This document shows, in pieces, positions 3,179 to 24,300 of a DNA stretch of 24,300 nt (position 1 is its first letter; each line of letters begins with the position of its first letter). The position numbers and the translations under genes are program-made. Under the pieces are notes generated by a model, which saw only the letters and a program-made list of their open reading frames with translations, was not told the DNA's origin and did no database searches. Source of the stretch: a virus; the IMG/VR virus record IMGVR_UViG_3300042456_000439, positions 1-24,300 of that record; one strand, given 5' to 3'.

Positions 3179-3507
3179 TGATAAAAAAAGAACAATGTGT
3201 GCCAGGTACAATAGTTAAAGTAAACAAAAAACACACAAAATGGAATTCCAGTGTTCAATTAGGTGTTACTAATCCGGATGTTCTTTTTGCATTTCCTCAT
3301 AATAGTTATGAGTTAGGAGATACATCTTTAGGTATTTTACCAGGAAATAATTTAGAAATATTAAGCAAACCTAAAAGAAGTGAAGCTGGTACAATAGTAA
3401 CTTTTAAAATATTATCAACAGGAGCAATTGCATCTACTTGGTGGATATGCATCATGCATAAAGTTGATATTGTTAAATCTAATATGAATTTAAAAATTGA
3501 AGACTGA
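3178..3507 (+). CDS. Hypothetical small beta-rich protein
   Basis: This 109-residue protein (MIKKEQCVPGTIVKVNKK...) is rich in Val, Ile, Gly and Thr. Repeated short strands such as PGTIVKVNKK and AGTIVTFKIL suggest a small beta-barrel (SH3 or OB-like). That is only an impression. The same frame is open upstream to an ATG at 3145, but 3178 is chosen because it overlaps the previous stop (TAATG) like the rest of this run. The gene ends in LKIED, the same five residues that end the preceding protein, and its TGA overlaps the next ATG. Confidence 0.6.
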   Translation: MIKKEQCVPGTIVKVNKKHTKWNSSVQLGVTNPDVLFAFPHNSYELGDTSLGILPGNNLEILSKPKRSEAGTIVTFKILSTGAIASTWWICIMHKVDIVKSNMNLKIED

Positions 3508-3905
3508 TGAGTAAAATTAAATTTGACAAAGAAGAAACAAAGAATTTATTAAACATGCTAAAGTCTGGTGATTCTGAGAATCACACTATAGCATTTCAAG
3601 CATTGGAGAATGCTGACCTTAAAAACTATAAAGGTGAGTTGCTTGTATTGTACAAGTATGCTAAACTTAGTGCTAGTACTTGGGAGAAAGAAGCTCCTAA
3701 AGCACATAAAATACTATCAAAGCTTACTGTAAGTTTTGATAATTTAACTAGTGGTAAATGTTTGTCTATAATGACATCAGATAATGCTAGTAAAGATTCT
3801 ATAGAGTTATTTCTAGAGAATTTTGTTGTTGATATGGTTGGGTTCCTAGAACAACTAGGGTATCCGGCAGATAAGTTTAATATTAACATAGAACTAAAAG
3901 AGTAA
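3507..3905 (+). CDS. Hypothetical helical protein
   Basis: This 132-residue protein of mixed charge is mostly helical by composition (KEETKNLLNMLKSG, LVLYKYAKLSASTWEKEAPK). I recognise no family, signal peptide or membrane segment. It is coupled to both neighbours through TGATG and TAATG junctions. It lies immediately before the VWA-metallopeptidase gene, so a role with that protein and the AAA+ ATPase is possible but not shown. Confidence 0.6.
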   Translation: MSKIKFDKEETKNLLNMLKSGDSENHTIAFQALENADLKNYKGELLVLYKYAKLSASTWEKEAPKAHKILSKLTVSFDNLTSGKCLSIMTSDNASKDSIELFLENFVVDMVGFLEQLGYPADKFNINIELKE

Positions 3906-14058: not shown

Positions 14059-17000
14059 TTATTTAGCAAATGTAGACTTAAAGCTTTTAACTGCTTCATC
14101 TGGTGAGAATGTATAACCAGAGAAACCCATCAGCTTTAAGAAGTATGCCCAAGATTTGTTAGAACCTTTATCCCATACACCAGTTTGTTTTTGATAGGTT
14201 AGTTTATCTTCATCCCAAGTTAATAAAAACTGATCAAAGAACTTAACAAATCTATCTATAGTACCTGTAATAGCAGATGGTGATTTAGCAATCCTCCAGA
14301 AATCCGCAGGACTTAGATATGAAAAAGTCTCACTCCTCATTCTAATAGCTTGATACATCATAAAGTAATATGCATATGGTAAATCTTCTTTTTCTTCTCC
14401 ATCATCTCCGGTACCCATAAATTCTAATGCTAGAATAAGTGCTCCTAATGCTGCAATGATTGTAAGCTCTGCCACTACTTTTCTAATCTGTGCTTTTTCA
14501 AATGGTGAGTATGTACTCCACTGTTTAAAGATTTGAGTTTTGTATCTGTATGTATCTTTAACTAAAGTTCTTAAGAACACTCTGTACATACCTTCTGTAG
14601 CACCACCAAGTTCTTCATCAAATGAAGCTGACTTAAATCTTCTTTTTATACCTTGGTATAAGTGTTTACGGTACATTAATACAAGTCTACCTCCGGCATA
14701 TCTTTGTAACACACCTTTATCAAAGTCATTATATACACCATGCATTTTTTTATTCAGTGCATGTAATGTATTCATAAAGTCTTGTCTTTGTTTTTCATCA
14801 AAGTCTTTTCTTTCTATAGTACCATCAGCACTAGCTGCATCTATTTGTACTTTATACTCTTTTACTTTTTTCCTATTTTCATCAGTAGTCATTTCATATA
14901 GTATAGGACCATACTTTTCATGAGCTTCTAATAATGTGATTTCTTCACCTGTTTCTTTATCTATAACTTTTGTAGCATCCATTAATGCAAGCATTGTCTT
15001 TACTTGAATTTCATGTTCTGCAAAGTTTTGATTAAAGAATAAAGTATTTGTTCTAAAGAATTTGTTTGCTACACTAGCTGAAACATTTTTACCATACTCA
15101 TCTTTAAAGTTACCTTGTATAGGGTCATAATACTCAGTCAATCTACCTAACCAACTTTCAGCTTTAAGTCTTCCAAAGTCAGCCATATTATCTCCTATTG
15201 TTGCCCAGTATTTGGCTCCGCCTTTTACTAAGTTTTTTCCATTAAAGTATTCACCACCGGCTGCTTCAATTGCAACCTGGATATTACCTTGAATGTTATT
15301 AGCTGTACCTTTAAGTATATCCATAGAAAGTGTAGTAACTGCTGATATACCCATAGCAGTATTTACAATCTTTGATAACTCAAGGCCCCAGATTTTTTCT
15401 GCTTTCTGTGATTCTCCTTGTACAACCATTTCTAAAAATGCTTCCAAGTGCATCTTAGAATAAGAAGTACCATTTGATTTTATATATTCATCAAATCCTA
15501 GTTTTTTAGCAGCAATGTTTAAGATAGATTCACCGGAAGCTGTTGTTACAGCAGTTTCTCTTTCACCAATTATACTTCTGAAAGCTGTGATTTCTGCATG
15601 AATTTCATTCATAGCATTATATCTTCTAGCCATTGAACCAAATTGTAATACAGATTTAATTAAATCTACACTAACATCATCAGCATCCATTGGTTGTGTA
15701 TAATATACAGGTAGCATGGTCATCTTTTCACCAGATAAACTTGCTCTACCATATGGTCTAGTGTCTATTTCATTACCTTCACTGCTAAGATTAGCACCAT
15801 ATAATGCTTGGTCATAGCTTTGAATTGATACTGATTCTTTTAAGTTTGTTTTAACTAAGTTACCAGCTCCTTTTCTATATAACCTTTCATAGTCTTCCAT
15901 AGGAATAGAAGGAAGAATATACCCCATTCTTTGAGACTCAGGTAATAATTCTTGATCTTTTAAGTATATGTCTGTCAGATACTTATGATATTCTCCTTCT
16001 GGTGATATTGGTTGACCTTCTTCATTGTATAGTTTCAACCATTTTTTATTTATGTACTTATCTGATGGTTCTGTTAACTCACCATAAAATGTTTTGACAC
16101 CTGTTTTTTTATCAACATATTCTACTTTTGAAAGCCATTCTTCATATTCTTCATTAGTAATGATACCTTTATTTAACTCATCCCGTTTATTATTTGTTAT
16201 TTTTTGAATTTCTTCAGTAGATTTTGGTTGTCTGTTTTGTTTATACCACTGGTTTCTTTTTATCTTCCATTCCTTTAATCTAGCTTCATACTCTAATACT
16301 TCTTCTGCAGGAGAGTCAGGAGTAATTTTTGGTTTTGGATTTGTTTTGTAAAATGCTTGTTCTGCATCTTTATATAAATTAAGATCATACTTTTGTACAA
16401 AAGACATCTTTTTATCAAAGACAAGTTCACCATTTTCTTTTACAGGCTTCCCTTTAATATCTCTTCTTAATACAGAAATTTCTTCATAAAGACCTGCATT
16501 AAATTCTGCAATATTGTTAATGCTTCTTCCGGATTTATCTCTAAATTCTTTAAGTTTTTCTACAGCTTCATCTCTCTCAGCTATATCTTCCATTCTGGAT
16601 CCTTCAAACTGAGACTTAACCATCTTAGCAAATAAAGCTAGAGCACTGTCTTCTGAACTTATTAATGGGTTGAGTAAGTAATCAAAGACACCTTCATCCT
16701 TTAATGACATTTTAAGAATGTTTTCCATTCTCTCTTTGTCAATAAGCATGTTTTGCCATTTGGTTAATTCTTTTTGAGCTGCATTAATGTCACTTGCTTT
16801 TGCAGCATCAGATAGTTCAGAAGCTCTAATTTTTTGAATTCTTTCTTGATAGGTTTTGATCTGTTCATTTATAGTACCTACATTTCTTGTATTTCTTTGG
16901 GCTACTAATACTTCAGCTAATAATGGAGTGATCTCATTTATGTAAGCTGTTCTAATAAAGTTTCTAATTTCAAGTGCTGTAGTTAATTTATCTTGTGGAG

Positions 17001-17559
17001 TATACTCAGACAAGCTTTTTCTTTCTACAGGTTTTCCAAAGTATTCTATAGCATCTGACTTTGATATTTCATCTAGTATAGAATAGTTATTAGCAAAGTC
17101 ATTAATGTTTACCAGACCTTCTAAAAAATCTTTGTTATTTATTTTACCATCTTTAAAATCAGCTACTAAGCTTTTAAAATATTTTTTAGCACCAAGAGCT
17201 TTTTCAAATGAATCTTCTATAAATAGATTTATAGACTCAACACCATTTAGTTCATTAACCATCTTAGTTAATCTAGCTAATTGGGCTTCTTGCTCTCTTT
17301 GGTTTTTAAGTTTTTTTCTACTAAGCTCATACTTCTTTTCTTCCAAGAATACTTTTACTTTTTGCAAAGCTTCAGCAAAGTCTTTAGGAGCTTCTTCTGC
17401 AGGAATATTTGGATTATCTTGAAGTAATTCTTCAAACTCATCATCTTGTTCTTTTACTAATTTGTTCCATTCTTCCAGTGCACGTTCTTCATTGCCATTT
17501 TCTTGGGCAAGAAGTTTTTTCCATTCTTCACTGTTTTTATTTGGGCAACTTCCTAACAT
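14059..17559 (-). CDS. Large virion-associated or ejected protein, unassigned
   Basis: This 1166-residue protein lies directly downstream of the virion RNA polymerase gene; its ATG overlaps that gene's TAG stop by 7 bases (17553-17559). It begins MLGSCPNKNSEEWKKLL, a Cys-Pro-Asn-Lys-Asn opening I associate with large multidomain phage proteins. Residues about 10-450 are highly charged and helical, likely partly coiled coil. The middle contains alternating polar segments without a catalytic motif I can name. One hydrophobic segment lies near residues 1028-1048 (VAELTIIAALGALILALEFMG), followed by an acidic patch and an aromatic-rich C-terminus. Size, place and strand fit the large cargo or ejection proteins carried with the polymerase in crAss-like virions. 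The single membrane segment could help cross the host envelope, which is inference. Confidence 0.6.
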   Translation of the reverse strand: MLGSCPNKNSEEWKKLLAQENGNEERALEEWNKLVKEQDDEFEELLQDNPNIPAEEAPKDFAEALQKVKVFLEEKKYELSRKKLKNQREQEAQLARLTKMVNELNGVESINLFIEDSFEKALGAKKYFKSLVADFKDGKINNKDFLEGLVNINDFANNYSILDEISKSDAIEYFGKPVERKSLSEYTPQDKLTTALEIRNFIRTAYINEITPLLAEVLVAQRNTRNVGTINEQIKTYQERIQKIRASELSDAAKASDINAAQKELTKWQNMLIDKERMENILKMSLKDEGVFDYLLNPLISSEDSALALFAKMVKSQFEGSRMEDIAERDEAVEKLKEFRDKSGRSINNIAEFNAGLYEEISVLRRDIKGKPVKENGELVFDKKMSFVQKYDLNLYKDAEQAFYKTNPKPKITPDSPAEEVLEYEARLKEWKIKRNQWYKQNRQPKSTEEIQKITNNKRDELNKGIITNEEYEEWLSKVEYVDKKTGVKTFYGELTEPSDKYINKKWLKLYNEEGQPISPEGEYHKYLTDIYLKDQELLPESQRMGYILPSIPMEDYERLYRKGAGNLVKTNLKESVSIQSYDQALYGANLSSEGNEIDTRPYGRASLSGEKMTMLPVYYTQPMDADDVSVDLIKSVLQFGSMARRYNAMNEIHAEITAFRSIIGERETAVTTASGESILNIAAKKLGFDEYIKSNGTSYSKMHLEAFLEMVVQGESQKAEKIWGLELSKIVNTAMGISAVTTLSMDILKGTANNIQGNIQVAIEAAGGEYFNGKNLVKGGAKYWATIGDNMADFGRLKAESWLGRLTEYYDPIQGNFKDEYGKNVSASVANKFFRTNTLFFNQNFAEHEIQVKTMLALMDATKVIDKETGEEITLLEAHEKYGPILYEMTTDENRKKVKEYKVQIDAASADGTIERKDFDEKQRQDFMNTLHALNKKMHGVYNDFDKGVLQRYAGGRLVLMYRKHLYQGIKRRFKSASFDEELGGATEGMYRVFLRTLVKDTYRYKTQIFKQWSTYSPFEKAQIRKVVAELTIIAALGALILALEFMGTGDDGEEKEDLPYAYYFMMYQAIRMRSETFSYLSPADFWRIAKSPSAITGTIDRFVKFFDQFLLTWDEDKLTYQKQTGVWDKGSNKSWAYFLKLMGFSGYTFSPDEAVKSFKSTFAK

Positions 17560-20500
17560 AGCTTATCAAGTATTTTTGTTATTTTGTTATAGTCTTCTTG
17601 GGTTTTTGCTTCTGCTAAATTATTGATTATATCAACAATATCATAACCTCTTTCTGCTAATTGTTCTTCTATATTAGTAGTAGCTCTTAGAGTGATGAGT
17701 CTATCAAGGGCTTTATCAATTACTTCAGGATCCACAGGTGCATCAAGACCTGGTTCAGTTTCCTGTTTACCAGTCTCCATATTAATGTTTCTCAAGTATA
17801 TTTCACCGGTTGTGGCATCTACTAAATCATAGTTACCAAACTTATTTAGTCTATACATTCTATTCTCTGAAGTAAATGTCTGAGGTTGAACACCATTGTT
17901 TTTAGCAACTAGATCATTGTATACATTCATGTCTGTATCAATTGTAGCTTCAGGTTTTGGGCTTATAGATGTTTCAGTAGATTGAGTAAATCTTTGGTAC
18001 CCAGTTCTTCCAACTTCAATATAGTTACCTTTTTCAATAGCATCATAAGATAATCCTACTTCTCCTGATCCTCTATCTGTAAAATCAGCTTCTTCTATAG
18101 GTATTAAATATGCATATACAGTAGGATTATTTTCCCCATAGTTTATAGCATAATATGAAGCTTCTTTAATTGCTCTATTATAGTCAAATAAATCATCTCC
18201 TTCTTCATTTGTATAAAATAACATTTGACCTTCATATCTTGCACCCATTGACTCTGCTATTCTTCTAGCATTTTCATTTCTAAATTCACCTGTATATTGT
18301 TTAGATCTATTAGGTTTATCAAATTTTTGACCTCCATGAAAACCTAAAATATATTTTTCACCATCTTTATTTACCTTTTTTAATTCTTCTAAACTATTAT
18401 TTAATAACTGCTGTAGATTTTTTTCAAACTCTTCTTTAGGAATTGATGTTGTAACTTCACCAGGTTGAGTAGATGGTTGTGTAAATCTTTTTAATGCTGT
18501 TTCAAGATCATTTATATATAGTTTACTTCTTCTGATAGTATCAGGATTACCATATTTATCAGCTCCTATTTGTAATTGTTCTTTCTGCCTAGAAATCTCT
18601 TTAACTAACTCATCTTTAGCAAAAGGTTTTAAATATTTTTCTACACCAGACTTTAACTCTTCAGAATAAGTTTCATTATATATTTTATTCACTTCATCTA
18701 TTGTTAAAAGAATTGGTGCATTAGCAGTATCCTTATAATCTATTGTTCTATAAGGACTTTGCCAAATATAATTATCTATAATTTGAAAGTCAGTAATTTT
18801 TGGTTTAGGAGCTGTATATAAGTTAATTAAAAAGTCTACAAACTCTTTTGGTAAATTTTCATTTATAAAGGCATCTATTTCTGATCTTCTTAGATTTCTT
18901 TTTGTTTCAGGGTTTGTTACTTGCTTATATAAATTTGAATTAGTGTCATACTTATAAAGATTAAATGCTACATTTTTATCTAAGTCTTTTTTTGGTGTTA
19001 TCATAAATTCTGAATCACCAACTGTAAATACAGCACTACCATAATCAAGACCAGTTTTAATTTCTTTTACATTATTTATTTCAGCCGGTTTTGTATAAAC
19101 TTTAGCTTCAGATGGTTCAGTAGATGGTTGTTTCCAGTTATATTTATTAATTAAATAATCTAAAGCTGAAGCATGTGAAGGCTCTCCTAATTCAGCATAA
19201 TACTGAAGTTGTCTTCCTTTTAATTTGCCAGATTTTAAAATATCTAAAATAAAAGCTCTTCTTTCTGGTTTAACATTTATAAATTTATCTGTAGTAAGCC
19301 AATCAATGTAATTTAAAACAGCTTCTTTTGTAGAATTTGTTTTAATTGTTCCTGTTCTATTAAAACTAGCCCAAGGATTTGAGAAGCTTTTTACATCACT
19401 ATCTACTTCCATAGTGTATACTCTACCTTTATCTTTTGCTTCTTTTACATTAGCATCCCTGTCATACTTACCATCTTTAGTTTTTATATTAGAAATGACA
19501 ATATTTGGAGACAAAGTTTTATTACCTAATTGAGAATATATTGTTTCAAAATCTTGAGTAGATGGTTGAGTAGGAGCTTGAGAAGCAGTGTTTTTATAAA
19601 CATCTCTGATAGCTTGTTTACCAGCTTCATTTATTTCTCTAGTACCAACACCAGCAAATTTCTTTGTTAAAACAGGAGTATCAGTTTGATCAAATCTACC
19701 TTTCTGTCCTGGTATATCTGAGTCTACAAGTCCTTCTGGATTATACTTCATCCAAACATTATAATTTAGATCAAATACATATACTGGTTTACCAAGATTA
19801 ATGGCCATTTGTACAGCATATCCAGTACCACCATCAACTTGAAGAGCTTTTACTTTATAACCTTTGCTATTAGTATCACCTTCTTCTAAAATTTTACCCA
19901 CTGCAAATACTGCATCTGCTGCTTTAGCTTGAAGATAATCTCTTCTTACTAGTCCACCTGAATAATAAATACTTTTTCCTTCCGCATTTTTAGCATTAGG
20001 ATTATTCCAATCATATGTTAATGGTTTTCTTCCTAAATCACTAGCAGCTTTTTGATATGCATCTTCAACTTCTTTAATTTGTTCAGGAGTGAGTTTTTGT
20101 AAAGTCTGTGGTTTATAATCTACTTGTTTTCCTATTCCAAATTCTTTACCTATTTCAGCCCATGCTGTATCACTACCTATTGCTCCACCGGAATAGTTTG
20201 TATATTCTGGTAACTGATTAGTAGGTTCTGTAGGTTGAACATCTTCTTTCTTAGTGATATGCATACCTGTTGCAAGGTTTACATTCTCATAGTAGTACTC
20301 ACCGGTCTCTTGATCCAGCATGTCATATGTACCATATTGATTTTTAATCCATATAGCACTTTGCGGCATACCTTGTCTCTTACCGGTAGCGGAGTTATAG
20401 AATGCAGGGAATAAAGTTTTAGATGTAAAGAATCTTTCAGGTCTTTTGCCTCCAAGTTTTTTAACCATTTGGTTAAATAAATCTACATCTTCCTGGTTTA

Positions 20501-23500
20501 TTAATCTTACTAGAACTATATTTTCTCCTTCCTCATCATCAAATGTTTCTAATGTACCATCATTACTTGGTTTAGATGCTTCTGATGTTGCAAGATCACT
20601 ATGAATATATCCTTCAGGAGAAACAAGATAGTTCTTAAACTTATCCATGCTAACAACTGTTTCAAATATTTCATCCAGTGTTTCAGTGCTTAAGTAATTA
20701 CTAATGAATGCTTTAGATCCAGCAGTAAGAATATCTTTATATTCTACAGGATCTAATGCTTTAACAAAACCTAATCTTGTTTTACCTACACCATGCTGAT
20801 AGAACATGTTAAGTGAGAACAAATTAAACATCTCAGATATTCTTTGGTTATCACTTTCATTTTCTTCATCAGATTTATTTTTGTTCTGAACTTTAGTTAC
20901 ACTTGGGTCAGCTAAGTTTCTAAGATTGTTATAATATACGGAAGCTAGTTCTCCTTGGGCCTCTTTCTGGTTATTTAACTGTAGAACTTTTACACCATCT
21001 GTATTTGTACCTGGAGTTAATTGAGCTGTGATAGGATAATTAACTTTAAGTGTATCACCAAACTCATTAATTAAATTCAACAAAGAATCAGAATAACTAT
21101 ATTTGGTTTTACCCATGATATACTTATTATTGAAGCTAGCTCCTAGGGCTCTTTCTGATATGTAACTTTCATATGCATCATTAGCATTACCCATAGCAAG
21201 TACTCTTCTTAGGAAGTCACTATTGTTTTCAAGAGATTCAATTGGGTGATTTACTCTATTAGACTCTCTAGCTATAACATATCTGTAATAACTTGCTAAT
21301 GTTTGAAACGGATCATCTTTGATTTTAAATGTATCTAAACCTCTAGAACCATAATTATTCTCAGCCGTACTTGTTTCTAAGTATGCTTTGTTTGCATAAT
21401 CAGTTTCAATTCTGCGGGTATTAATTGCAATACCTTCTTCTACTATTTCAACATCTGTATCTAACTCATCTACTTTAATAACTGGTCTGTTATCTGTATA
21501 AGTATCTGGGATATTTACTAGTTCTCCTTTTGCATTACGGAAGTTAGACAAATAGTTTTGATAGATATAGTTTATTACTGCATTGTTAAACAATGTACTG
21601 AATCTTTCTTGTCCATTTATACCTTTACCAAATGTAGGGTTGTTTCTAATTTTAGAAGCTTTAGATTGATCTACAAATGCATTACTGATATATTTAGTTA
21701 TCTCAGGATTAAGCCTTAGATTAAACAAAGGCTCTGTAAGCTTTTTAATTAAATCATCTTGATTAAATGAAGATAGTATAGATTCTTTAAGTAATCTATT
21801 TAAGAAGTCTTGATCTATTGAGTTACTCTTTCTTAATTCTTCATAAGATTCCATTCTTTTAAGCACCTGTTGTACTGTAGTAAGCTTACCAGTATCCGGG
21901 GAGAATGTCTGTTGCAAATCATTCATAGCTTTAAACTGTCTTTCCAGTTCAAGATAGTTCATGAATAATGCAAGAGCCGTCATTGACTTGTTATCTTTTA
22001 CACCATCTTTTAGTGTTTTTGTAGCAAGATTTCCTTTTGGTAAATACTTATTTGATAACACTTCGGTAGCAAAAGCAAAGTTCTCTGTACTGTTTATAGC
22101 ATTGCTGTAAAAATAAACTGTAGAATCATTACTCATATTTTCCATGGTAGATATTCTCTCAATATTTTCAGGAGCTAAACCACCACTATTTAATTTAGCC
22201 AACAATTCTTTTAAAGTAATTTCTTTAACACCGGATACTTTCTTTATTTTGTAATAATACTTTTGGTCTTCACCTGTAATCTTTAAACCATTAAGAACAT
22301 ATCTTAATTTAGCTACATTGATTTCATCATATAATGGAGTTAAATCAGCTTGGTAAAAATTCTTAAGCAAATTGTTTATGATATTATTTGCAGGACTACC
22401 TTTTTCTTTTTTACCAATTATGCTAGAATATGCACTTTTACTTAATTTTTCTTTTTCAAAATACTCAGCAATAAGAGGTTGGTTTAAGAAAAAGAATATT
22501 TGTTCCTCATCTACTCCGGCCTGAAGCATGTAACTAAATACATCCATAGCTTCCGGAACCAATTTTAATTCAAATGGGAATGATTCTTTAGCTCTATCTA
22601 AGATACCTTGTAGAGAGTGAGATGATACATCAGATATGCGGGAACCTCTTTGAGTTCTTTCTCCAGATAATGATATAACTTCTTGACCTTGAGCATTTCT
22701 AGTTTTGTTATGAGCAAATCTCATAACTACAGGTAATGTGTAACCTGTCTCTATAGTTTTATTTAATGCTTCAATGAAAGCAGAAGCTTTATATGTAGCC
22801 GGCATTATAGCACCTACAGATTTATATATAGGGTGACTCTTAGTTAACTTAGCCATTATACCCAATGAAGCTTCTAAAGATAAGTTAGCATCATGTTTGT
22901 ATAAGTTATAAGTAGCCTCAAGTACTCTAGTTGGACTAATTACAGTTTTTCTTTTGCCATTTTTATCAGCTGCAGAAAGTTTAGGTGCCTGACCATGAGT
23001 ATTATCATATCTGTTGTAACCTGTTTTGTTTTCTTCTAACTCAGGTACATATGTGTCTACCAGATAAGTTCCATTTGGCTTAGTTAAATAAGCATAGTTT
23101 TCCGGCAACATTAGGATTTCTACAGCAGCATTTTTAAATCTGTTTTGTAGATACTTTTTCTGTTCAGCAATTAGAGCTCTTGAAGATGGTCTTCCTTTTA
23201 TAGACTTCTTAGCTTTCTCAAGTGCTTGAGTTTCTTTAAGTAGAGTTTCAAAGTTATCTACTCCTTTAGAAACAACTTTACCTTCTCTGTCTATATTAGG
23301 GAAAGTCATAAATAACTTATCACCGTCAAAGTCAGATCCAGCTTTTGCAACTATCTCAGTTGGTACTATAATACTATTACCAAATGCTTCAGGTAAGAAA
23401 TGCCATACTGTTGCTGCTTCAATTGTATTGGTAGCATCATTAGGGATCCTTGGACCAAACATAGTTACAGCATCCTTATTAGCTTCTAACCATTTAGGAT

Positions 23501-24300
23501 CTTTGATAACTTCATTAAGTCTATCAATAGTAGATATTGTTTCACCATCTGTGTGCTTGCCGTTTAGGAGCTTAACAAACTCTCCTTGTAAAGCCACAGC
23601 AACTTTCATTTCATTACTTCTTCCACCTTTGTTTCTGATATAAAAAGGAAGAGTGTTTGTACCCATCCATTTTTTAATCTCTTTAAGATCAGTTAAAGTA
23701 GTGTATTCAGAATCCCAAATACCATTGGTAAATGTAGATGGAGTTTGTACTAATGGTTCTCCATTAGTTTTTTGTTTGATTAACCCATTCTGTAAAAAGC
23801 TCATGATAAGCTTTTCAACTGTATCAGCTTCTGGATGCAATGATAAATCCATTGCTAGCTCCTCATCATTGGCAGTGTTGAGTAATCTAATTAAGTGCTC
23901 AGGAGTATCTCTATTTTTTAATTCATCTCTGATAACTTCAACAAATTGTTTTAAGTTACCAACAGCTCTACCGTCAATAAACTCAAAGCCAATCTCACTT
24001 AGTAATTCTTCTTTTAATATTTCTGAGTAATCTTTTACTGCAGATAAATACTCATCAAGTACTGGTTTGTTTTTCTCATTAATTAACTTACCTTCTTTAT
24101 ATAAGTTATCAAGTAATATACCTCTGGTCTGTGTTGCAATAGGAAGAGAGCCCTTAAAGTGTTCATTAATAACCGTAACCTCTTTTAAGTTGGCCATGTA
24201 AATTGGATTTACAGTAAATAGCATATCCTCTTTAATAGCTTTATCATCTTTGCTAGCAAAAATGTTATCTACTTCACGGTCACTTGTTAAATTGGCACCT
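17553..24300 (-). CDS. crAss-like virion RNA polymerase polyprotein, 5'-truncated by window edge
   Basis: At least 2248 residues are visible. The frame is open to the right edge (25 codons precede the first ATG at 24224), so the true start lies outside. Residue numbers count from that ATG. The catalytic metal-binding loop is SDFDGDKLF, with DFDGD at 298-302. It is preceded by FGPRIPNDATNT and FLPEAFGNSIIVP, matching the layout before the active site of multisubunit RNA polymerase beta'. DFDGD is the known motif of the crAss-like phage phi14:2 gp66, a single-chain polymerase packaged in the virion and injected to transcribe early genes. Residues to about 1240 are probably polymerase body. Then come a repeated module (copy A), SLOG, DUF4326-like and possible ADP-ribosyltransferase domains, copy B and a short helical end. 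The stop is TAG. Confidence 0.85.
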   Translation of the reverse strand, partial: GANLTSDREVDNIFASKDDKAIKEDMLFTVNPIYMANLKEVTVINEHFKGSLPIATQTRGILLDNLYKEGKLINEKNKPVLDEYLSAVKDYSEILKEELLSEIGFEFIDGRAVGNLKQFVEVIRDELKNRDTPEHLIRLLNTANDEELAMDLSLHPEADTVEKLIMSFLQNGLIKQKTNGEPLVQTPSTFTNGIWDSEYTTLTDLKEIKKWMGTNTLPFYIRNKGGRSNEMKVAVALQGEFVKLLNGKHTDGETISTIDRLNEVIKDPKWLEANKDAVTMFGPRIPNDATNTIEAATVWHFLPEAFGNSIIVPTEIVAKAGSDFDGDKLFMTFPNIDREGKVVSKGVDNFETLLKETQALEKAKKSIKGRPSSRALIAEQKKYLQNRFKNAAVEILMLPENYAYLTKPNGTYLVDTYVPELEENKTGYNRYDNTHGQAPKLSAADKNGKRKTVISPTRVLEATYNLYKHDANLSLEASLGIMAKLTKSHPIYKSVGAIMPATYKASAFIEALNKTIETGYTLPVVMRFAHNKTRNAQGQEVISLSGERTQRGSRISDVSSHSLQGILDRAKESFPFELKLVPEAMDVFSYMLQAGVDEEQIFFFLNQPLIAEYFEKEKLSKSAYSSIIGKKEKGSPANNIINNLLKNFYQADLTPLYDEINVAKLRYVLNGLKITGEDQKYYYKIKKVSGVKEITLKELLAKLNSGGLAPENIERISTMENMSNDSTVYFYSNAINSTENFAFATEVLSNKYLPKGNLATKTLKDGVKDNKSMTALALFMNYLELERQFKAMNDLQQTFSPDTGKLTTVQQVLKRMESYEELRKSNSIDQDFLNRLLKESILSSFNQDDLIKKLTEPLFNLRLNPEITKYISNAFVDQSKASKIRNNPTFGKGINGQERFSTLFNNAVINYIYQNYLSNFRNAKGELVNIPDTYTDNRPVIKVDELDTDVEIVEEGIAINTRRIETDYANKAYLETSTAENNYGSRGLDTFKIKDDPFQTLASYYRYVIARESNRVNHPIESLENNSDFLRRVLAMGNANDAYESYISERALGASFNNKYIMGKTKYSYSDSLLNLINEFGDTLKVNYPITAQLTPGTNTDGVKVLQLNNQKEAQGELASVYYNNLRNLADPSVTKVQNKNKSDEENESDNQRISEMFNLFSLNMFYQHGVGKTRLGFVKALDPVEYKDILTAGSKAFISNYLSTETLDEIFETVVSMDKFKNYLVSPEGYIHSDLATSEASKPSNDGTLETFDDEEGENIVLVRLINQEDVDLFNQMVKKLGGKRPERFFTSKTLFPAFYNSATGKRQGMPQSAIWIKNQYGTYDMLDQETGEYYYENVNLATGMHITKKEDVQPTEPTNQLPEYTNYSGGAIGSDTAWAEIGKEFGIGKQVDYKPQTLQKLTPEQIKEVEDAYQKAASDLGRKPLTYDWNNPNAKNAEGKSIYYSGGLVRRDYLQAKAADAVFAVGKILEEGDTNSKGYKVKALQVDGGTGYAVQMAINLGKPVYVFDLNYNVWMKYNPEGLVDSDIPGQKGRFDQTDTPVLTKKFAGVGTREINEAGKQAIRDVYKNTASQAPTQPSTQDFETIYSQLGNKTLSPNIVISNIKTKDGKYDRDANVKEAKDKGRVYTMEVDSDVKSFSNPWASFNRTGTIKTNSTKEAVLNYIDWLTTDKFINVKPERRAFILDILKSGKLKGRQLQYYAELGEPSHASALDYLINKYNWKQPSTEPSEAKVYTKPAEINNVKEIKTGLDYGSAVFTVGDSEFMITPKKDLDKNVAFNLYKYDTNSNLYKQVTNPETKRNLRRSEIDAFINENLPKEFVDFLINLYTAPKPKITDFQIIDNYIWQSPYRTIDYKDTANAPILLTIDEVNKIYNETYSEELKSGVEKYLKPFAKDELVKEISRQKEQLQIGADKYGNPDTIRRSKLYINDLETALKRFTQPSTQPGEVTTSIPKEEFEKNLQQLLNNSLEELKKVNKDGEKYILGFHGGQKFDKPNRSKQYTGEFRNENARRIAESMGARYEGQMLFYTNEEGDDLFDYNRAIKEASYYAINYGENNPTVYAYLIPIEEADFTDRGSGEVGLSYDAIEKGNYIEVGRTGYQRFTQSTETSISPKPEATIDTDMNVYNDLVAKNNGVQPQTFTSENRMYRLNKFGNYDLVDATTGEIYLRNINMETGKQETEPGLDAPVDPEVIDKALDRLITLRATTNIEEQLAERGYDIVDIINNLAEAKTQEDYNKITKILDKLC
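17755..17939 (-). repeat. Module copy B of the duplicated protein segment
   Basis: It encodes about residues 2096-2157 and pairs with copy A (20250-20489) in the same orientation. The conserved core is the (I/L)N-x-(Y/F)-G-x-YD-(M/L)-(L/V)-D-x-x-TGE-(Y/I)-Y series followed by N-(V/I)-N-(L/M)-x-TG. It sits just before the C-terminal helical tail of the polyprotein. Confidence 0.75.
17975..17995 (-). repeat. Linker repeat 4 (RFTQSTE-type)
   Basis: CAGTAGATTGAGTAAATCTTT shares its start with linker 2 and its end (GTAAATCTTT) with the sequence after linker 3. It separates the ADP-ribosyltransferase-like segment from module copy B and encodes RFTQSTETS. Confidence 0.6.
17995..18440 (-). other. 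Possible ADP-ribosyltransferase-like domain
   Basis: About residues 1930-2077, bounded by two repeat linkers. YILGFHGGQKFDKP recalls the YHGT-type first strand of ADP-ribosyltransferase folds. MLFYTNEEGD and IKEASYYAINYGENNPTVYAYLI recall the following YFT strand and the helix with alternating Tyr. A late Glu in GEVGLSYDAIEKG could be the third catalytic position. No one residue proves the fold, so this is tentative. Confidence 0.35.
18467..18479 (-). repeat. Linker repeat 3 (QPSTQ-type)
   Basis: GAGTAGATGGTTG is identical to linker 1 and is followed on the + strand by TGTAAATCTTT. It lies before the possible ADP-ribosyltransferase-like domain (phrase RFTQPSTQPG). Confidence 0.7.
19118..19130 (-). 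repeat. Linker repeat 2 (QPSTE-type)
   Basis: CAGTAGATGGTTG differs from linker 1 by one base. It lies directly after the DUF4326-like domain, in the phrase QPSTEPSEAK. Confidence 0.7.
19135..19500 (-). other. DUF4326-like domain
   Basis: About residues 1576-1696. NPWASFNRTGTIKTNSTKEAVLNY and then LKGRQLQYYAELGEPSHASALDYL follow the plan of DUF4326. That plan is a GNPF-type loop, a short helix carrying EAVxxYxxWL, and an LRGKxLxCxC...CHAxxLxxL ending, here with Cys replaced. DUF4326 has no known function to me but often travels with SLOG-type and nucleotide-related domains. Moderate confidence from motif spacing. Confidence 0.5.
19556..19568 (-). repeat. Linker repeat 1 (QPSTQ-type)
   Basis: GAGTAGATGGTTG on the + strand encodes Gln-Pro-Ser-Thr-Gln on the coding strand. 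It joins the SLOG domain to the DUF4326-like domain (phrase APTQPSTQDF). Confidence 0.7.
19620..20200 (-). other. Circularly permuted YpsA-type SLOG domain
   Basis: About residues 1342-1535 of the polyprotein. The order is YSGGAIGSDTAW (1344-1355), then RRDYLQAKAADAVFAVG, GGTGYAVQMAINLGKPVYVFD (around 1463-1482) and finally FAGVGTREINEAG (1522-1535). In ordinary phage SLOG proteins the VGSRE-like strand comes first and the SGGAxGxD loop second; here the order is swapped. That is the hallmark of the cpYpsA (putative molybdenum carrier) group. SLOG folds bind nucleotides or nucleotide-derived ligands, sometimes NAD-related. Confidence 0.7.
20250..20489 (-). repeat. Module copy A of a duplicated protein segment
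   Basis: It encodes about residues 1246-1325. Key phrases are LFNQMVKKLGG, FFTSKTLF, IKNQYGTYDMLDQETGEYYY and NVNLATG. It aligns with copy B at 17755-17939, where the same order reads VYNDLVAKNNG, TFTSENRMY, LNKFGNYDLVDATTGEIYL and NINMETG. Copy A carries about 20 extra residues after the FTS segment. The last part reads like a small beta-hairpin describing a Tyr-Asp-x-x-Asp turn. Confidence 0.75.
23319..23333 (-). other. RNA polymerase active-site motif DFDGD
   Basis: Codons for Asp-Phe-Asp-Gly-Asp lie in one run; the three Asp would chelate the catalytic magnesium. The surrounding KAGSDFDGDKLFM matches the DxDGD signature shared by crAss-like phage polymerases and the eukaryotic RNA-dependent polymerase (QDE-1) group. 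The other catalytic half (beta-like double-psi barrel lysines) should lie in the missing N-terminal part. Confidence 0.9.

Follow-up and report, generated by a model that had tools for sequence, protein, structure and literature searches.

Apparently exchangeable cargo modules at the C-terminus of a crAss-like virion RNA polymerase

Phages and conjugative elements encode polyvalent proteins, large multi-domain polypeptides that combine disparate activities, including ADP-ribosyltransferases (ART), in variable order and are predicted to be injected (PMC5512222). The RNA polymerase (RNAP)-bearing cases described there are N4-like, with a T7-type fold, and crAss-like phages, whose RNAP is of the two-barrel type, go unmentioned in the text of Iyer et al. 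2017 (PMC5512222). N4-like virion RNA polymerases (vRNAPs; Schitoviridae) are giant injected enzymes; their lack of cysteine is known and has been attributed to passage through the tail and periplasm (PMC3715699, PMC3915230). Among crAss-like phages, phi14:2 gp077 (2180 aa) is annotated as structural from MS/MS, and the crAss001 virion contains the homologous proteins, for which ejection in a partly unfolded state has been proposed (PMC10172136). In phages, the suggested task of SLOG, Macro, NADAR, and DUF4326-type domains is the processing or sensing of immune signals derived from NAD+/ADPr, and that of ARTs is the modification of host macromolecules (PMC9503650, PMC5512222). Such counter-defence modules are exchanged among viruses, and Macro, NADAR, SLOG, and Nudix typically stand alone (PMC9503650), whereas in the locus described here domains of this kind appear to be strung on the polymerase that starts the infection.

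The DNA analysed, hereafter the window, is one whole IMG/VR fragment of 24,300 bases. Replication genes (primase, ATPase, exonuclease VIII-like protein, and DNA polymerase) form a block on its plus strand, and two giant ORFs lie on its minus strand, at 14059-17559 (1166 aa) and 17553-24299 (open at the contig edge). The giant-protein block thus lies opposite in strand to the replication block, as in the Crassvirales-type vRNAP arrangement. All features given below lie on the minus strand. The polymerase core (20505-24299), which continues off the contig, aligned with phi14:2 gp077 in hhalign (probability 97%, E 1e-10) and retained the catalytic DxDxD loop, AKAGSDFDGDKLF in the alignment against TKTGSDFDIDKMY; the loop reads AGSDFDGDKLF, with DFDGD at 23319-23333. 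This homology and the retained loop identify the giant protein, at the level of sequence, as a predicted Crassvirales-type (phi14:2-type) vRNAP, in agreement with the preliminary description. An N4-like reading (T7-type single-subunit) was rejected, as the core aligned to the crAss-like vRNAP instead. The protein had been read as 2223 residues long; its identity as a polymerase stood, but the start of that ORF is an internal ATG. Since the reading frame runs open to the contig edge and complete polymerases in relatives comprise ~4.1-4.7 thousand residues (including 4129-4613 aa), the window holds only the C-terminal half.

Like phi14:2 gp077 and crAss001 gp47/gp50/gp49, the protein belongs to a block of genes with terminal cysteines whose products in those phages are virion proteins by MS, and it shares its catalytic core with gp077. 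The phi14:2 and crAss001 vRNAPs differ in being compact (gp077, 2180 aa), and our scan found in them no SLOG signature and no bay of the kind described below. PDB sequence searches with the window protein and with the polymerase alignment found no relative, and Pfam gave no significant match on the whole window protein or on its tail. The capsid, portal, and terminase hallmarks of Crassvirales were absent from the 24-kb fragment; the phrog_2 terminase profile had no match in four relatives, although divergent terminases may escape this profile.

We then examined the part of the protein beyond the core, for which an accessory cassette between two copies of one module had been proposed. Copy A (residues 1246-1326; 20247-20489) and copy B (residues 2098-2157; 17754-17933) proved to be genuine repeats. 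Their BLOSUM62 local score was 108, against a mean of 31.7 (sd 5.2, maximum 59) in 5000 shuffles, and pairwise BLASTP gave an E-value of 1e-11. A profile built from either copy found two copies in every complete relative of the clade. These relatives show two copies with differing cargo between them, and not one conserved fold free of repeats and variable content.

Copy B does not form a unit by itself but makes up one conserved block with the C-terminal ~62 residues, a helical segment (residues 2162-2223; 17556-17741). In these outgroups (e.g. L028, L032, L034, L035, L051, and L054), B and the last ~62 residues are encoded apart from the polymerase, in a ~300-aa gene just downstream of the polymerase gene; the C-terminal half of its product is homologous to B plus the C-terminal block (E 1e-17 to 1e-29). 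In the polymerase tree, the A/B proteins formed one clade (17 rows, support 100/100) and the separate-gene phages another group. Given this arrangement in the outgroups, the simplest history would be that the bay was closed by one fusion, of the polymerase gene with its downstream gene, plus an extra boundary copy beside the core; as to direction, we infer a fusion in the A/B lineage and not a fission in the other group. The earlier proposal of module duplication followed by cargo loading thus holds for the duplication and is refined to a downstream-gene fusion plus an extra copy, with linker-mediated exchange at strain level. Block genes fuse in more than one way: in L041/L042, the front of the last block protein (2003 aa) is fused to the N-terminal domain of the ~300-aa protein, yet the terminal cysteines persist.

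The interval between A and B in the window spans ~770 residues, as previously described, and consists of separable modules split by four T/S/Q/P linkers. Linker 1 (VQPTEPTNQLPE; 20205-20240), at the left end of a block common to the window and L034, is followed by cargo module 1 (residues 1339-1545; 19590-20210). This module is supported as a SLOG (DprA-like) domain: phrog_768 matched 15 of 15 homologues (1.5e-6 for the window), weak LDcluster4, DNA_processg_A, and cpYpsA matches each appeared in single homologues, and the structure model of the module had a pLDDT of about 90. After linker 2 (TASQAPTQPSTQ; 19554-19589) comes module 2 (residues 1558-1697; 19134-19553), a mobile module present in at least nine relatives. 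Linker 3 (KQPSTEPSE; 19107-19133) leads to module 3 (residues 1707-1914; 18483-19106), for which our scans found no relative. Linker 4 (FTQPSTQPGE; 18456-18485) precedes module 4 (residues 1925-2075; 18000-18452), for which they found a single relative, in L090 (58%), where it directly precedes a linker and then SLOG. That relative lies in a 2167-aa ORF ending in TQC (L090:3-6503), in which module 4, SLOG, a macro-like stretch, ART-PolyVal, an SF1 helicase, and an HExxH stretch are joined through TQPST-type linkers.

Of the domain names given in the preliminary description, SLOG was upheld by phrog_768, but its circular permutation, a DUF4326-like domain, and an ART fold were not. Circularly permuted SLOG (cpYpsA, PF12694) had no match in the window; DUF4326 (PF14216) matched 0 of 8 records at E<=1; ART-PolyVal (PF18760) had no match in the window, module 4 included, and Foldseek gave nothing significant, although ART-PolyVal does match other modules, in L020 and L090. 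With both structure models, Foldseek returned no PDB match at E<=0.001, and no family profile matched modules 2, 3, or 4. The window load is therefore SLOG plus three domains without a family match. The NP(F/W)...A..Y..WL...H pattern of module 2 recalls DUF4326 minus its cysteines, although the profile does not match; if the two are related, cysteine was purged from a motif.

To compare tails among relatives, we used 80 loci fetched with a polymerase profile. In close relatives, residues 3-1326/1347 were 68-92% identical and the C-terminal block 60-80%, while the interval between them differed. Locus L005 had flanks 92% identical to those of the window and unrelated cargo; in L009, the polymerase was just 39% identical and the SLOG domain 88-89% identical. 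Across the 80 loci, 76 tail pairs had stretches in common whose identity exceeded that of the cores by 15 points or more, with a maximum of 90% vs 25%. The 14 complete proteins with both A and B showed 13 different module orders, which bears out the variable content proposed earlier. Their modules included SLOG, AlkB-type dioxygenase, NADAR, macro-like, ART, ASCH-like, and P-loop types as well as unknowns. Of 55 tails, 12 matched 2OG-Fe(II) oxygenase, five ART-PolyVal, four NADAR, three Phage_30_3, and three helicases, and the HxD...H...Rx5R motif was intact in at least six AlkB-type modules. The comparison with related phages also yielded near-identical polymerases bearing different modules: L020, L021, and L022 show 99.7-99.9% DNA identity along 12.8 kb that reach into the tail and differ in their modules thereafter, the switch point between L020 and L021 being the linker GPTQPSVRKT.

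From these sequence comparisons, the A-to-B interval is best described as an exchangeable cargo bay at the polymerase C-terminus. An integral, vertically inherited polymerase part, used in DNA handling or regulation, would also lie in frame at the C-terminus and leave something between A and B in every complete clade member, as is seen. However, identical polymerases carry different inserts, and modules ~90% identical occur on polymerases that are 25-39% identical. We therefore regard this explanation as very improbable and, for the A-B interval, as refuted, though A, B, and the C-terminal block may yet belong to the polymerase proper. The suspicion that variable tails are metagenome assembly chimeras arises from the fact that relatives with the full A...B arrangement are all metagenome contigs. 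It is countered by L021 and L044, which come from different metagenomes and are 100% identical across the L020/L021-type junction; L005 and L008 likewise agree. Moreover, every join is in frame, at a linker, and keeps zero cysteine, and the named complete crassvirus genomes cr113_1, cr130_1, and cr272_1 bear SLOG at the end of a giant protein with the RNAP motif. Chimerism can hardly be credited at all. With whole modules exchanged at linkers, closely related phages would bear different first-minute toolkits on the same polymerase.

The ends of exchanged blocks clustered at linkers. These ends (n = 116) lay a median of 15.5 nt from the nearest linker, vs 219 nt for random positions, as measured with a linker pattern that misses some linkers. 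A 17-mer of linker DNA (<=2 mismatches) had 15 occurrences in the tails (148 kb) and none in the flanking DNA (1.26 Mb), and an exact linker 21-mer was present in six viral contigs out of 2.9 million, each time in a long ORF of the giant-protein kind, and absent from the genome collection. These observations suggest that linker DNA serves as a handle for homologous recombination. The rival is that linker DNA is kept merely through peptide and codon bias, with illegitimate recombination sorted by selection for in-frame joins; low-complexity linkers tolerate joins, so that selection alone would concentrate surviving breakpoints there. Codon usage, however, predicts far less uniform linkers: QPST is written CAACCATCTACT in 16/23 cases (5% expected) and TQPT ACTCAACCTACT in 25/36 (9% expected), counts in which copies that moved together are not independent. 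We consider the rival a serious possibility, if somewhat doubtful. Part of the likeness of linker DNA could also stem from common descent of modules that moved recently, and not from a selected handle.

Cysteine content bears on whether the cargo is delivered. With the last 15 residues excluded, 66 tails contained 0 cysteines in 47,912 residues, while other window genes had 8.7 per 1000 residues and six stand-alone SLOG homologues in other phages had 1-4 each. At the level of sequence, the strongest sign that polymerase and cargo travel together is that cysteine exclusion spans the whole cargo, as in injected N4-like vRNAPs; those of Klebsiella phage Pylas and Alteromonas phage PT15-A5, which bear SLOG, have no cysteine in 3819 and 3495 residues. 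The MS-detected homologues in phi14:2 and crAss001 virions lend further support, and the cargo is thus probably packaged and injected with the polymerase. It might instead be cleaved off in the producing cell, or be active late in infection alone; proteases are frequent in polyvalent proteins, which may undergo processing (PMC5512222). This is unlikely, as cysteine exclusion remains strict through the cargo to the last residues, as in N4-like vRNAPs (PMC3715699, PMC3915230), and the sole cysteine, which is conserved, lies behind the cargo at the extreme C-terminus.

That residue, C2223 (codon 17556-17558), is the only cysteine among the 2223 residues, and the downstream 1166-aa protein of the transcription block (14059-17559) likewise has a sole cysteine, C5 (17545-17547). 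We examined this pattern in the window, L004-L089, L091 (phi14:2), and L092 (crAss001). The 177 distinct block proteins (397,812 residues) contained 251 cysteines, 219 of which were terminal (<=10 residues from the N-terminus or <=15 from the C-terminus) vs 2.8 expected. Along the gene order, the first protein had a C-terminal cysteine only, the middle ones both, and the last an N-terminal one only. Among 125 tallied junctions, 101 were cysteine-cysteine, 15 had neither (mostly non-block neighbours), and nine were mixed. In phi14:2, gp078 has one cysteine (1797, the last residue), gp077 two (3 and 2179), and gp076 one (3). In crAss001, gp47 has one (2339 of 2341), gp50 has three (5, 1334, and 2404), and gp49 has one (5); gp47 follows the pattern despite being encoded on the opposite strand. 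In phages with a separate ~300-aa gene, cysteines are present at both junctions; in the fused form, the internal cysteines are gone.

Overlapping start codons (A-TGT-TAG, as in the window) were rejected as a general cause, because phi14:2 gp077, which ends in ECK, is separated from gp076 by 2 nt, crAss001 gp47 is encoded on the opposite strand, and many proteins end in ..CKL or ..CGG; overlap also leaves the N-terminal cysteines and the absence of cysteine elsewhere unexplained. Intramolecular circularisation was rejected, as the first and last proteins have one terminal cysteine only. A cysteine-coupled train is conceivable, and we would put it a little short of an even chance: the C-terminal cysteine of one giant and the N-terminal cysteine of its successor would be paired, probably by a disulfide of the mature virion, the cargo-bearing polymerase being one wagon, with ordered tail passage and release by reduction in the host cytoplasm. 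As part of the same tentative proposal, fusion of two wagons would remove the coupling cysteines, as in the window's clade. Disulfides occur in crAss001 virions, and none is reported for the giant block proteins in the text searched (PMC10172136). In a literature search that took in few subscription papers, we found no paper describing terminal cysteines or polyvalent proteins in crassviruses. The pattern offers a direct, cheap test of the ordering and ejection of giant proteins through a narrow tail.

SLOG is common to two unrelated injected polymerases, the crAss-like one and the gammaproteobacterial N4-like one. The SLOG domains of the Pylas and PT15-A5 vRNAPs (L002, L003) are 42% and 29% identical to that of the window; they differ in lying near residue 1000 of ~3500-3800, outside any C-terminal bay, on proteins that lack terminal cysteines. 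In public crassvirus genomes, several giant proteins that bear the RNAP DxDxD motif have been labelled 'DprA-like' or 'DNA helicase' (cr113_1 gp38, L098; cr130_1 gp79, L099; cr50_1 gp59, L102) or hypothetical (cr272_1 gp23, L100), and in three of them (cr113_1, cr130_1, and cr272_1) SLOG lies near the C-terminus. Polymerase-borne cargo accounts for such misannotations of giant polymerase proteins as 'DprA-like' or 'DNA helicase'.

Taken together, we consider it likely that the window encodes a cargo bay on an injected crAss-like vRNAP, with linker-borne module exchange, an origin by fusion, and a counter-defence role, delivery and role being the inferred parts. In the proposed arrangement, the polymerase core would be followed by A, by two to about six small domains with T/S/Q/P linkers, by B, and by the helical C-terminal block. 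Cargo domains would be gained, lost, and reordered as whole modules, through recombination with breakpoints in or beside linkers, which are near-identical in DNA from module to module and from phage to phage. A fusion that joined the polymerase gene to its downstream neighbour (B and C-terminal block) would have closed the bay, A being an extra copy. The entire polypeptide, free of cysteine, would be packaged and threaded into the host, so that the cargo could act ahead of any phage gene expression. SLOG, macro-like, and NADAR domains may bind or clear NAD+/ADP-ribose signals or adducts, AlkB-type dioxygenase may repair or demethylate nucleic acid, and ART may modify host proteins. The recognisable modules in relatives are the proposed NAD+/ADPr set plus AlkB-type repair, and the most likely job of the cargo would be pre-emptive counter-defence and template protection, a role carried over from domain families in relatives and from literature predictions.

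The cassette is thus a variant of the polyvalent proteins, as had been suggested, with several disparate enzymatic domains in variable order in relatives attached to a vRNAP. It differs from those described (PMC5512222) in that the bay is bounded by duplicated modules, with near-identical linker DNA and strain-level exchange; this exchange is more dynamic than the preliminary description proposed. Crassviruses are among the most abundant gut viruses. A polymerase-borne, fast-exchanged toolkit names concrete genes through which their injected proteins may shape the first minutes of infection, and would mean that close relatives may differ in the defences they can meet.
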